A stretch of DNA of 64,000 bases, from positions 1,178,001 through 1,242,000 of the forward strand of contig NZ_CAMTTE010000001.1 of the NCBI RefSeq assembly GCF_947077775.1, read 5' to 3'. The DNA comes from Salinibacter pepae (GTDB lineage: Bacteria > Bacteroidota > Rhodothermia > Rhodothermales > Salinibacteraceae). The notes under the pieces were generated by a model. That model did not search any database and was not told where the DNA came from. It saw only the letters and a program-made list of their open reading frames with translations. Below are positions 2,104 to 47,819 of the stretch, piece after piece (within the stretch, counting starts at the first letter, position 1; every line of letters starts with the position of its first letter). Made by a program: the position numbers and the translations under genes.

Positions 2104-4317
2104 ATGGATGCAAGCATGACGCCGGAGGAGGCGCCCATCTCGGGACGCAAGAAGTTTGGCACGTTCGGCGGCGTGTTTACCCCCACGGTGCTCACAATTC
2201 TCGGGGTGATCATGTACCTCCGGGAGGGATGGATTATTGGGAACGCAGGGCTGCTCGGGGGACTGCTAATCATCACCCTTGGGTTTGCGATCACGCTCTG
2301 CACCGCCCTCGCGATGTCGTCCATCACGACGAACATCCGCATCGGGGCGGGCGGGGCATACGCGGTCATTGCCCAGTCGCTGGGGCTAGAAGTGGGCGGC
2401 AGCGTCGGCATCCCCCGGTACCTCTCGCAGGCCCTCGCGGTGACGATGTACATCTTCGGCTTCCGCGAAGGCTGGCTCTTCGTCTTCCCGAGCCATCCGG
2501 CCCTCCTCGTTGACATCGCCACGTTTGCGGTCCTATACGGGATCGCGTATGTAAGCGCCGACTTCGCGATCCGCGTGCAGTACCTCATTTTGGCCCTCAT
2601 CGGCGCCTCGCTCGTCTCCATCGCCGCGGCGGCCGCCACCGGGTCGATGCAGTACGGCCTCGGCGCGGTCCAGCTCTGGGGCGATTTCACGGGCACGCCC
2701 GCGGACCCGACCCGGCCCAACTCATTCTGGATCGTCTTCGCCGTCTTCTTTCCCGCCACGACGGGCATCATGGCCGGGGCGAATATGAGCGGTGACCTCG
2801 AGGACCCGAAGCGCAGTATTCCGGTGGGCACCCTAGCGGCCGTCGGCGTATCGTTCGTGATTTACGTGCTGCTGGCGGTCTGGCTTGCCCTATCGGCCAC
2901 GCCCGAGGAGATGGTGAGCAGCTACACGGTGATGGTGGACAAGGCGTACTGGCCCCCGGCGGTCCTGGCGGGCCTGCTGGGCGCAACCTTCTCCTCGGCC
3001 CTCGCCTCGTTGGTGGGGGCGGGGCGCATCCTGCAGGCGATGGGCGCCCACCGGGTCGTGCCCAAAGCGGACTGGCTCGCCCACCTCGCCCCCGACGGCG
3101 AGCCGCGCCACTCGATGATGGTGACGGGGGCCATCATCTTCGCCTCGCTCCTGGTGCGCGACCTGAACGCCATTGCGCTGCTTATCACCATGTTCTTCCT
3201 CGTCACCTACGCGATGATCTGTGCGGCGGTGCTCATCGAGCAGGGCCTCGGCCTCGTGAGCTTTCGCCCCCGCCTCCGCATCCCCATCTGGGTGTCGTTC
3301 CTCGGCCTCGCCGGGTCCCTGCTGGCGATGTTCATCATCAACCCCACGATCAGCGTCGTCGCGCTCGTTGTCACGCTCGGGTTCTACGCCGTCCTGGCGC
3401 ACCGGCAGCTGGATGCCCCCTTCGAGGACGTACGCAGCGGCATGTTCGTGGCGCTCGCGGAGTGGGCGGCCAAGAAGGTAACCGAACTGCCCACGATGCA
3501 GGAGCGGGCCTGGAAGCCGAACCTGCTGGTGCCGGTGGAGCAGAGCAGCACCCTCCGCGGCTCGTTTCTCACATTACAAGACCTCACCGCCCCGCAGGGC
3601 TCGGTGAAAATCGTGGGCCTGAGCCCGGACGGACGCCCCGACGTGCTGACCGATCAGCTCGACACGCTCACCGCGGCCTTTCGCGAACGCGATATCTTTG
3701 CCGCTGCCACGATCATCGATGCCGGAGGCTTTGCCGAGGGGCTGCGGGCGGGCATGCAGGCGCTCCGCGGGGCCTTCTTCCGCCCGAACATCGTGTTTCT
3801 GCGGATGCCGACCTCGCCCGAGCGGGAGGCGGATTACCGCCACGTCATCGCGGAGGCGGACCGGGAGAACGTGGGCACACTGCTCTACGCGCCGCACCCG
3901 CGGGCCGCCTTGGGCCCGCGCCAGACCATCAACGTCTGGATCCGCGACCGGAGCCCGGACTGGCGCATCTCGATGGAGATTGGCAACCTCGACCTCGCCC
4001 TCCTCACCGGCTACAAGCTGTCGCAGAACTGGGACGCGCAGATGCGGCTCGTCACGGCCGTCGCCGCCCCCGACCAGCAGGGCAAAGCGCAGGACTTCTT
4101 GGAGAAACTGATCGACCTGGGCCGCTTTCCAGACTCCACCGCCGTGGTGGGCACGGAGCCCTTCGACGCCTACATCGAGGCCGCCCCACAGGCCGACCTA
4201 AACATCTTCGGCCTCCAGCCCGACCCGGACTTCGACACGATCCGCCGCCGGGTCGACCAGACGGACTCGACCTGCATGTTCGTGCGCGACTCGGGGCGGG
4301 AATCCGCATTGGCCTGA
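2104..4317 (+). CDS. SLC12-type cation-chloride cotransporter homologue (first copy)
   Basis: A 737-aa membrane protein of the APC superfamily, closest to the Na-K-Cl/K-Cl cotransporter (SLC12) branch. It begins with FGTFGGVFTPTVLTILGVI (residues 18-36) and carries the family hallmark GIMAGANMSGDLEDP near 222-236, followed by IPVGTL. About 12 membrane segments fill residues 25-440. The last 300 residues are a soluble cytosolic domain, as in eukaryotic SLC12 proteins. In this family Cl- is co-transported with K+ and/or Na+, which would suit a cell accumulating KCl. The ion set is inferred, not shown. An in-frame ATG 12 bp downstream is an alternative start. A second homologue lies at 7142. An interspersed repeat begins right after the stop codon. 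Confidence 0.85.
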   Translation: MDASMTPEEAPISGRKKFGTFGGVFTPTVLTILGVIMYLREGWIIGNAGLLGGLLIITLGFAITLCTALAMSSITTNIRIGAGGAYAVIAQSLGLEVGGSVGIPRYLSQALAVTMYIFGFREGWLFVFPSHPALLVDIATFAVLYGIAYVSADFAIRVQYLILALIGASLVSIAAAAATGSMQYGLGAVQLWGDFTGTPADPTRPNSFWIVFAVFFPATTGIMAGANMSGDLEDPKRSIPVGTLAAVGVSFVIYVLLAVWLALSATPEEMVSSYTVMVDKAYWPPAVLAGLLGATFSSALASLVGAGRILQAMGAHRVVPKADWLAHLAPDGEPRHSMMVTGAIIFASLLVRDLNAIALLITMFFLVTYAMICAAVLIEQGLGLVSFRPRLRIPIWVSFLGLAGSLLAMFIINPTISVVALVVTLGFYAVLAHRQLDAPFEDVRSGMFVALAEWAAKKVTELPTMQERAWKPNLLVPVEQSSTLRGSFLTLQDLTAPQGSVKIVGLSPDGRPDVLTDQLDTLTAAFRERDIFAAATIIDAGGFAEGLRAGMQALRGAFFRPNIVFLRMPTSPEREADYRHVIAEADRENVGTLLYAPHPRAALGPRQTINVWIRDRSPDWRISMEIGNLDLALLTGYKLSQNWDAQMRLVTAVAAPDQQGKAQDFLEKLIDLGRFPDSTAVVGTEPFDAYIEAAPQADLNIFGLQPDPDFDTIRRRVDQTDSTCMFVRDSGRESALA

Positions 4318-4726
4318 CTGAGTAGACACGCAAAAGAACCTTCCGGATGCGTCATTCCGAGCGTAACGAAGCGGAGCCGAGACACGAGCAAAGCGACTGA
4401 TGAACTACATCTCTTCGCAGGCCGGCAGAAGCGCCCGTCCGACCGATGAGTCCTGACATCAACATCCTCGCCGCGTCAGAGAAATTCTTCGACTCCCTCT
4501 CGACCCTGTGAGAACGGCTCCGGACTGAGCCCAGGAAACTGGCGGTTGTGCGCAAGAGGGAATTGATTGGGCTCGGTTCACCTCGTACCATGTCACTTCG
4601 TACTATGTTGAGGTGGAGTCAGACGGTCCGCCACCCGTTGCCGTCCGTCACGCCCCCTCCGCAATGAAGTCCCCCAACGGGCCCCGCTTCATCACCCTAC
4701 GTTCCTGAACCGCTCTCTACTCGCCC
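4318..4726. other. 409-bp intergenic region with repeat copy 1
   Basis: No convincing gene. The left half holds an interspersed repeat also found after 47221 (see the repeat entry). The right half, about 4520-4726, contains a loose local direct repeat (cgtaccatg, then cgtactatg near 4585-4605) and otherwise nothing recognisable. Promoter elements for the following permease presumably lie here, but no clear TTTG/TAnnTTTG pair was seen. Confidence 0.6.
4321..4516. repeat. Interspersed inverted-repeat (MITE-like) element, copy 1, degraded right end
   Basis: It opens with AGTAGACACGCAAAAGA one base after the SLC12-type gene's TGA, then GTCATTCCGAGCG at 4351. The run cgaagcggag, cgagacacgag, aagcgactgatgaa closely matches 47259-47312, including the same leader right after a stop codon. 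The right end (about 4480-4516, with TTCGACTCC) is a decayed version of the inverted left end and has lost the final GAATGAC seen in copy 2. There is no coding capacity, so any movement would be non-autonomous. Confidence 0.7.
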
Positions 4727-45807: not shown

Positions 45808-46006
45808 CTGAGTGTTCGGCGGGACTTCCGAAGGCCCGGATGGCGTTTCGGGGCTCGACGCGTTTGGACGACCGGCACCCGACACCTATCTTGCCTGTTC
45901 CATCCTCGGCGAAGCGTCTGCCGTCGGTCGTGCGCTGGCCCCGAGGCTCCGGGCCGGCGACGCCCCTCGTGGGCCTCAACTCCTCTCCCATCCCCGAATT
46001 TTGCCC

Positions 46007-47221
46007 ATGTCCGTCACCATCGACGACGTTCGTGCTGCCCGTGAGCGCCTGGACGACCCGTCCGTCGTCCGCAAAACGCCGATCGATTCCTGCCACTCGC
46101 TCTCGGAGCTGTCCGGGGCGGTCGCCATCCTCAAGATGGAGCACCTGCAGCGCACGGGGTCGTTCAAGACGCGAGGGGCCTACAATAAACTCGCCCAGGT
46201 GGCGTCCGGGGCCGTCGGTCGGGTGGTGGCCGCCAGTGCGGGCAACCACGCCCAGGGGGTGGCCCTGGCGGCGACGACGGTCGACCTGCCGTCGACCATT
46301 GTCATGCCCCGCAACGCCCCCCAGGCGAAGGTGGACGCGACGCGCGGCTACGGGGCCGACGTGGAGCTGACGGGCGATACATTTCAGGAGGCGATGACTC
46401 GCGCCCGCGAACTGGCCCGGGGCGACGACGCGCTCTTCGTCCACGCGTACGACGACCCGGACATCGTCGCGGGCCAGGGCACCCTCGGGTTCGAGCTCTA
46501 CGAGCAGGTGCCCGACGTCGATACCGTCATTGCGCCGATCGGCGGCGGGGGGCTCATCGGCGGCACCAGCATGGCCCTCGCGGACATTGCCCCGAACGTC
46601 CGGGTGGTGGGCGTGCAGGCCGCGGGCGCCGCAACCGTTCCCCAGAGCCTCGCGAAGGGCGTGCCGGTGCCCGTCGACCACCCCGACACCATCGCGGACG
46701 GGATCGCCACGGGCGGCGTGTCCGAGCTCACCCTGGGGCTCATCGATGACCACGTCGACGAGGTCATCACCGTCACCGACGGCGAAATTGCGCGCGCCAT
46801 CCTGCTGCTGCTCGAACGAGCGAAGCAGCTGGTGGAAGGCGCGGGCGCGGCTCCGGTGGCCGCCCTGCTGTCCGACAAGCTCGACGTGACGGGCGAGACG
46901 GTGGTCCCCCTCCTGTGCGGCGGCAACATCGATCCGGCCCGGCTCCAAGAGGTTCTGGACCACGCCATGGCCGACCGCATCCAACTTCTTCGTCTTCGGG
47001 TTCGCATCGACGACCAGCCGGGGAAAATGGCCGATATTTCCCGGCGCATCGCCGGCCAGGGCGCAAACATCCGGCACGTGCGCCACGATCGGGCGGTGCA
47101 CGGCCTCGATGTGGGGGAGGCGTACCTCGTGTTCGAGGTCATTACCAGTGGTCGAGGCCAGGCCGAAAACACCATCGCGGCCATCGAGGATGACGGCTAC
47201 GAGGTGGAGCGGGTCAACTAA
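46007..47221 (+). CDS. ilvA: Threonine dehydratase (threonine ammonia-lyase) with ACT domain
   Basis: A 404-aa PLP enzyme converting threonine to 2-oxobutanoate and ammonia, first step of isoleucine synthesis or of threonine breakdown. PLP Lys54 is in RTGSFKTRGAYNKL. The phosphate-binding loop is IGGGGLIGG near 180. GAGAAPVAALL near 283 also fits. One ACT domain occupies about 325-404 (LRVRIDDQPGKMADISRRIAGQGANI), as in the 400-residue single-ACT form rather than the 500-residue two-ACT IlvA. Isoleucine feedback is therefore possible but not certain. ATG 46007 is chosen since the preceding in-frame codons are unlike the family. An inverted-repeat element follows the stop codon. Confidence 0.92.
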   Translation: MSVTIDDVRAARERLDDPSVVRKTPIDSCHSLSELSGAVAILKMEHLQRTGSFKTRGAYNKLAQVASGAVGRVVAASAGNHAQGVALAATTVDLPSTIVMPRNAPQAKVDATRGYGADVELTGDTFQEAMTRARELARGDDALFVHAYDDPDIVAGQGTLGFELYEQVPDVDTVIAPIGGGGLIGGTSMALADIAPNVRVVGVQAAGAATVPQSLAKGVPVPVDHPDTIADGIATGGVSELTLGLIDDHVDEVITVTDGEIARAILLLLERAKQLVEGAGAAPVAALLSDKLDVTGETVVPLLCGGNIDPARLQEVLDHAMADRIQLLRLRVRIDDQPGKMADISRRIAGQGANIRHVRHDRAVHGLDVGEAYLVFEVITSGRGQAENTIAAIEDDGYEVERVN

Positions 47222-47440
47222 GTAGACACGCAAAAGACCCTTGACAACTTGACAACAAGTCATTCCGGGCGCAGCGAAGCGGAGTCGAGACACGAGCGAA
47301 GCGACTGATGAAATCAATCCCTTCGAAGTTCAGCAGAAGCGACCTTCAGGCCGGTATATGCCCAAATCAGCGTTCGCGCTGGACCCAGTAAGATTTGTCG
47401 ACTCGCTTTTCCCTCCGGTCGTCGGTCGCTCAGAATGACC
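47221..47440. repeat. Interspersed inverted-repeat (MITE-like) element, copy 2
   Basis: It opens with AGTAGACACGCAAAAGA immediately after the ilvA stop codon. Then GTCATTCCGGGCG (47259) to GAGTCGAGA (47290) forms the left arm, and TCGACTC (47398) to GCTCAGAATGACC (47440) forms the inverted right arm, about 180 bp in all. The ends read GTCATTC inward from both sides. It is non-coding. The CATTCCGAGCG-type arm resembles repeats seen in many Bacteroidota genomes, as far as I recall. Confidence 0.72.
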
Positions 47441-47819
47441 CTCGAATAAACGTATTTCTGCGGGTTTACATAGCCGATGCTCACTTGTTTTTCCTTCGTA
47501 AAAACGTCCCGGACATAACCGAGTAGGATGGTTCCCTTGTCCGGTCTGATGAAGGTGCATATTGGGACTGCGAGGCCCCTCTGCACCGGCGACGCACTGC
47601 CGGGAAGCTCCCCACGCGCCGCCCCAGGGCGATGGCTAGATGCGACGGATTGTCGGGCCGTCTCCCCGGATGTCCCCGGATGCTGTCAGGCCCCTCTGTG
47701 CCCCCACCAGCACATGCCGAAGTGACAGCCCCCGGCCTGATTGCACACGGCTGGTGCAAATGTTGCTCGGTGTACGGACTGTCGTTTGTCACTGATTTCT
47801 GAACAACCTCCTCCACTCT
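47222..47819. other. 598-bp intergenic region with repeat copy 2
   Basis: Holds the second copy of the interspersed repeat (47221-47440), then AT-richer DNA to about 47530 and GC-rich DNA to 47819. An open frame on the minus strand at 47314-47586 overlaps the repeat and has no coding character. No promoter for the 94-aa gene was identified with confidence. Confidence 0.5.

Follow-up and report, generated by a model that had tools for sequence, protein, structure and literature searches.

A short non-coding mobile element of Salinibacter pepae that inserts at TA and in part of its copies remakes a native stop codon

The repeat found downstream of two genes in the window analysed here (the whole stretch of 64,000 nt, C1:1178001-1242000 of the 3.63 Mb, three-contig genome G000) is a non-coding mobile element, a MITE, and the leader shared by its copies is its left terminal inverted repeat. 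Comparison with congeners showed that it inserts at TA, which is duplicated, and mostly inside CTAG; in seven of its 12 genomic copies, the TA used was that of the upstream gene's native stop codon. We conclude with high confidence that it is an IS630-type MITE and that its placement at stop codons reflects its TA/CTAG target and terminal A, together with purifying selection, rather than a function in RNA 3'-end formation.

The element and its target site

The copies were named by their position in kb on the genome, and the two in the window, c1225 and c1182, are laid out as follows.

47221..47470, + strand: full MITE copy c1225, 250 bp between both TA dinucleotides; empty site in two congeners
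47221..47237, + strand: left terminal inverted repeat of c1225, AGTAGACACGCAAAAGA
47453..47470, + strand: right terminal inverted repeat of c1225 (reverse complement TGTAAACCCGCAGAAATA)
47219..47221, + strand: stop TAA of the gene upstream of c1225, made of the target TA and the element's first base A
47471..47472, + strand: right-hand copy of the target TA duplicated by c1225; the G after it is the last base of the original TAG
47259..47265, + strand: inner arm GTCATTC of c1225
47433..47439, + strand: inner arm GAATGAC of c1225
45812..47221, + strand: host gene of c1225, a PLP-dependent enzyme (PF00291); its C-terminal ACT match is weak, below the Pfam cut-off
4321..4516, + strand: decayed copy c1182, left end kept and right end unrecognisable; end coordinate as given in the preliminary description
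2104..4317, + strand: gene upstream of c1182, of the prokaryotic cation-chloride cotransporter type; its TGA stop ends three bases before the element's first base

The preliminary description had reported an interspersed inverted-repeat element in two copies, each starting at a stop codon with a common 17-base leader followed by CATTCCGRGCG. The leader is indeed common to the copies at 4321 and 47221, and corresponds to AGTAGACACGCAAAAGA; CATTCCGRGCG comes next in both. The start at a stop codon held for the copy at 47221, which shares its A with the TAA at 47219-47221, and not for that at 4321, which begins four bases past the TGA stop (4315-4317) and has TG in place of TA; the latter copy has a counterpart in the congener G005 (L154). 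The arms GTCATTC and GAATGAC, which had been taken for the ends, are present in the 47221 copy at 47259-47265 and 47433-47439, and the ends proper are the outer, TA-flanked repeats at 47221-47237 and 47453-47470.

A genome-wide search, as the preliminary description had proposed, yielded further copies. The sequence GTAGACACGCAAAAGA occurs exactly 11 times in the 3.63 Mb, and allowing up to three mismatches gave 19 matches against eight for a reversed control pattern. A DNA search with the 47221 copy as the query recovered the same 11 copies together with a decayed one at 1917 kb (c1917), so that the genome carries 12 copies and not two. Two further weak matches of this search covered interior parts only (L033 and L034). 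At L034 (G000:C1:1156111-1156140 and around) an inner module of the type GTCATCCTGAGCG ... CTCAGAATGAC stands alone, with the outer ends and their TA missing, which would fit an older repeat contained in the MITE.

The seven copies that were measured are 217-264 bp long, leaving no room for a transposase gene, as is the case for a MITE. Terminal inverted repeats, likewise a MITE feature, are present, AGTAGACACGCAAAAGA on the left and AGTAGACACGCAGAAATACG or TGTAAACACGCAGAAATACG on the right. Nine copies make up subfamily B (mean identity 94.6%, minimum 91.9%), which spans, with small variations between copies, from TA and AGTAGACACGCAAAAGA to TATTTCTGCGTGTTTACA and TA, and c1326 and c1917, mutually 81% alike, form a second group, with c1326 being 76-77% identical to subfamily B. 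The end bases are A at the left and T at the right in subfamily B, and A at both ends in c1326. In c2936 (L010), a 25-base interior stretch is missing relative to the other aligned copies.

For 10 of the 12 copies, the two flanks were joined and used as a query against 11 congeners, and the matching regions of G005, G002 and G001 were then aligned. Six of these 10 copies (c1225, c1326, c2345, c2432, c2798 and c2936) have a clean empty site, where a single TA stands in place of the two that flank the inserted element, the target being CTAG in five (seen in G005) and TTAA in c2345 (seen in G002). The gene upstream of c1225 has TAG as its stop at the empty site of G005, and TAA at that of G002. 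In three congeners, the gene upstream of c1841 terminates in a TAG located at the same codon; for c2308 and c3485, the element is absent from the aligned congeners and the target bases have diverged; c1662 aligned poorly and gave no clean empty site. Several copies, empty sites in relatives and TA duplication place the repeat among MITEs and among those of the IS630 type, and with its 12 copies it is indeed an interspersed inverted-repeat element.

Placement and orientation at stop codons

The copies at native stops are the six with clean empty sites plus c1841, and the other five lie off stop codons. In all seven, a long upstream frame with coding composition has, as its in-frame stop, the TA completed by the A of the element. 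Judged from the empty site of the nearest aligned congener, six of these frames originally stopped with TAG and one (c2345) with TAA; all now have TAA in the same codon. Because the first base of the element makes the stop TAA, the upstream gene keeps its natural end without truncation. Pfam assigned the upstream genes to a PLP enzyme (c1225), an ABC ATPase (c1326), an AhpC/TSA-type protein (c1841), an FMN reductase (c2345), DivIVA (c2798) and MscS (c2936), and gave no match for the gene upstream of c2432. The copy c1326 (L003) has the ABC ATPase gene on one side and, starting 45 bp downstream, a coding frame of the same strand on the other.

A CTAG background was compiled from 424 kb of the same genome with crude ORF calls (78% marked coding), in which 21 CTAG lay at stops, 50 between genes and 56 inside genes. 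Seven copies have a CTAG target, namely five with clean empty sites and c2308 and c3485, whose targets were reconstructed from the flanks. Five of these seven are at stops, compared with 21 of the 71 non-genic CTAG (p 0.027, with crude gene calls) and with all CTAG (p 0.0019). Relative to other non-genic CTAG sites, stops are thus modestly overrepresented among the targets, and much of the stop placement may be explicable by selection against broken genes. The target preference suggested in the preliminary description was borne out by the TA duplication, the mostly CTAG targets and the seven copies exactly at native stops.

These observations suggest the following course. The element inserts at TA, mostly in CTAG, and where it has entered a native stop, as in seven of the 12 copies, its A leaves TAA at the same codon; such insertions would cost the gene little and would therefore survive. 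An A-starting end towards the gene would be retained in this genome because the other end, which starts with T in subfamily B, would add 36-52 residues. Purifying selection, acting on insertions of an element with a terminal A and a CTAG target, would then account for the placement at stops.

The orientation of the copies is consistent with this course. The left end faces the gene in all seven stop-site copies. When the element was inverted computationally, the frame was extended by 52 codons at five of them and by 36 at c2936, and by none at c1326, where a stop follows immediately. Thus the uniform orientation at stops can be explained, since inversion would add 36-52 codons at six of the seven sites. 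In the genome G003, the right end of the copies too starts with A, and two of the six ends read there, both right ends (L157 and L160), abut long coding frames; the other four (L142, L152, L163 and L166) do not abut a long coding frame in frame. At L160, the protein ends at the identical residue in G002 and one residue further on in G011, and at L157 the ends of the congeners differ by a few residues. The pattern in G003, a small sample, is consistent with selection on the remade stop codon.

Orientation was also considered relative to replication. The origin was inferred from dnaA at C1:1900357 and from the GC skew, which has opposite signs in the samples taken at 1.85 and 2.05 Mb. Genes with a DnaA C-terminal domain occur twice, about half a chromosome apart, in both this genome and G005, at the following positions.

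G000:C1:1900357-1900560: DnaA C-terminal domain gene
G000:C1:3580754-3580957: DnaA C-terminal domain gene
G005:C1:1289-1492: DnaA C-terminal domain gene
G005:C1:1718125-1718328: DnaA C-terminal domain gene

With the origin so placed, 11 of the 12 copies are head-on to the replication fork, c1841 being the exception, compared with 146 of 298 called genes (from 18 of the 19 stretches sampled, the stretch at 50 kb being omitted; binomial p 0.0026). Genes ending in a CTAG stop are head-on in nine of 20 cases. Among four copies in G005, three are head-on; the S. pepae genome shares two of these four.

The bias might mean that replication steers insertion, so that the direction of the fork sets which way round the element enters. 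We regard this as improbable: the pattern was noticed after the fact and has its exception in c1841, one of the two G005 copies not shared with the S. pepae genome is co-directional, the second dnaA-like gene half a chromosome away makes the origin not fully certain, and the in-frame placement at stops is left unexplained. Doubtful too is the idea of a 'stop-safe' transposon, in which the CTAG target and the terminal A would be a selected pair converting TAG into TAA, and a fork-related meeting with the target would produce the near-uniform head-on orientation on both arms.

Mobiliser and distribution

A search confined to the IS630 transposase family (PF13358) found no such transposase in the S. 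pepae genome, and found it in seven of 13 genomes of the genus. An IS630 element in G010:C211 (recorded as a Salinivenus sp. MAG) is intact and encodes 363 aa, with PF13358 at 73 bits against a cut-off of 28.6. It has C-TA and TA-G at its ends and matches the MITE ends at 16 of 20 bases on the left and 13-14 of 20 on the right. A second, broken element in G008:C78 (recorded as Bacteroidetes bacterium QS_3_64_15) shares 13-15 of 20 end bases with the MITE. As controls, eight ends of other IS630 elements matched the MITE ends at 1-5 of 20 bases, and 1,592 TA sites of the window reached at most 12 of 20, both ends of the 47221 copy being set aside. The MITE therefore has ends in common with an autonomous IS630 element, in the sense of ends that are similar and not identical (13-16 of 20, G010 and G008).

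Nothing that was searched contained a transposase with ends identical to those of the MITE. Since the genome itself also yielded no IS630 transposase, the IS630 partner was inferred from end similarity. That absence might favour a mobilising transposase from another TA-targeting family; given the closely similar ends of two IS630 elements of the genus, we see only a small chance of this. With the G010 transposase as the query, two loci were recovered from the genome contigs, including the record from which the query came, and three of 244 genomes of the class matched at E ≤ 1e-20.

Relatives of the element itself were detected in eight of the 13 genomes of the genus by DNA search (E ≤ 0.001). 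The end pattern, with up to two mismatches, matched in 11 of 27 genomes of the family; on reading, the matches in G001, G006, G010, G011 and G026 and one of the seven in G003 were unlike the element and were dropped. In 14 genomes of the other genera of the family the pattern matched once, again in a sequence unlike the element. No exact match of TAAGTAGACACGCARAA was found in viral contigs, and none of the literature matches listed, judged by title and the start of the abstract, dealt with this element.

A role at 3' ends, and known systems

The preliminary description had also proposed a role in 3'-end processing or termination, which we found to be unsupported. A functional 3'-end element would be kept after genes for an RNA hairpin that terminates transcription or protects the message; the fixed position and orientation after genes in seven of the 12 copies, and inner and outer inverted repeats that are able to pair in the predicted fold, are what such an element would have. 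The predicted fold of the 47221 copy, the one copy folded, was however no better than that of its shuffles (z -0.79), 41 of 200 shuffles being at least as stable. A search for terminator-like sites found none on the gene's strand in either window copy, and one near each copy on the opposite strand. The window had no Rfam match at gathering scores, and the element was placed neither in an Rfam family nor among intrinsic terminators. Furthermore, a same-strand coding frame starts 0-68 bp past the element in six of the seven stop-site copies, which counts against a terminator because a terminator there would be expected to be polar, and the congeners do without the element at these places. Taken together, a 3'-end function is very unlikely. 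Truncation of host genes by a new premature stop has next to no probability and was rejected for the seven copies, as the congener gene ends at the same codon in sites without the element, even though the last base of TAA does come from the element's end.

Several known systems resemble this MITE; all were compared as described in excerpts of the sources cited. RUP (repeat unit of pneumococcus; 107 bp, 108 copies) is tied to IS-rich regions, with IS630-Spn1 as its proposed mover (PMC2229807). Like RUP, the present element is a short non-coding repeat with ends resembling those of an IS630 element and TA in its target. It differs in host, and the excerpt on RUP does not mention the rebuilding of stop codons, the comparison being one of descriptions, not sequences (PMC2229807). 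The BOX repeat of pneumococcus supplies the 3' stop codon in 36 of 58 overlapping genes, with strong evidence for truncation said to be absent (PMC3049150). Compared by description, both repeats contribute to a native stop; unlike this MITE, BOX is modular and linked to ISSpn2, and neither a CTAG target nor a TAG-to-TAA change is given in the excerpt (PMC3049150). IS630 of Shigella sonnei prefers TA in 5'-CTAG-3' (Tenzen and Ohtsubo 1991, cited in PMC2170065), as the present element does; it is autonomous, with a transposase gene, unlike the MITE. MITEs of Haloquadratum walsbyi are described as having moved although the genome lacks a functional copy of the matching transposase (PMC3119063). 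The situation in S. pepae is similar in that no matching transposase was found in the genome, and different in that H. walsbyi is an archaeal host with other element families (PMC3119063). As far as these excerpts go, the main features of the MITE are already covered by RUP, BOX, the CTAG preference of IS630 and the Haloquadratum MITEs; distinctive here is the unusually clear account of the element's siting at stop codons.

Comparison of filled with empty sites, and of sister species whose elements have different end bases, would allow selection on orientation to be separated from target choice. The element offers a clear and checkable case of how a small mobile element can spread among densely packed genes with little apparent cost, taking a stop codon as its landing site and leaving a stop codon in place.
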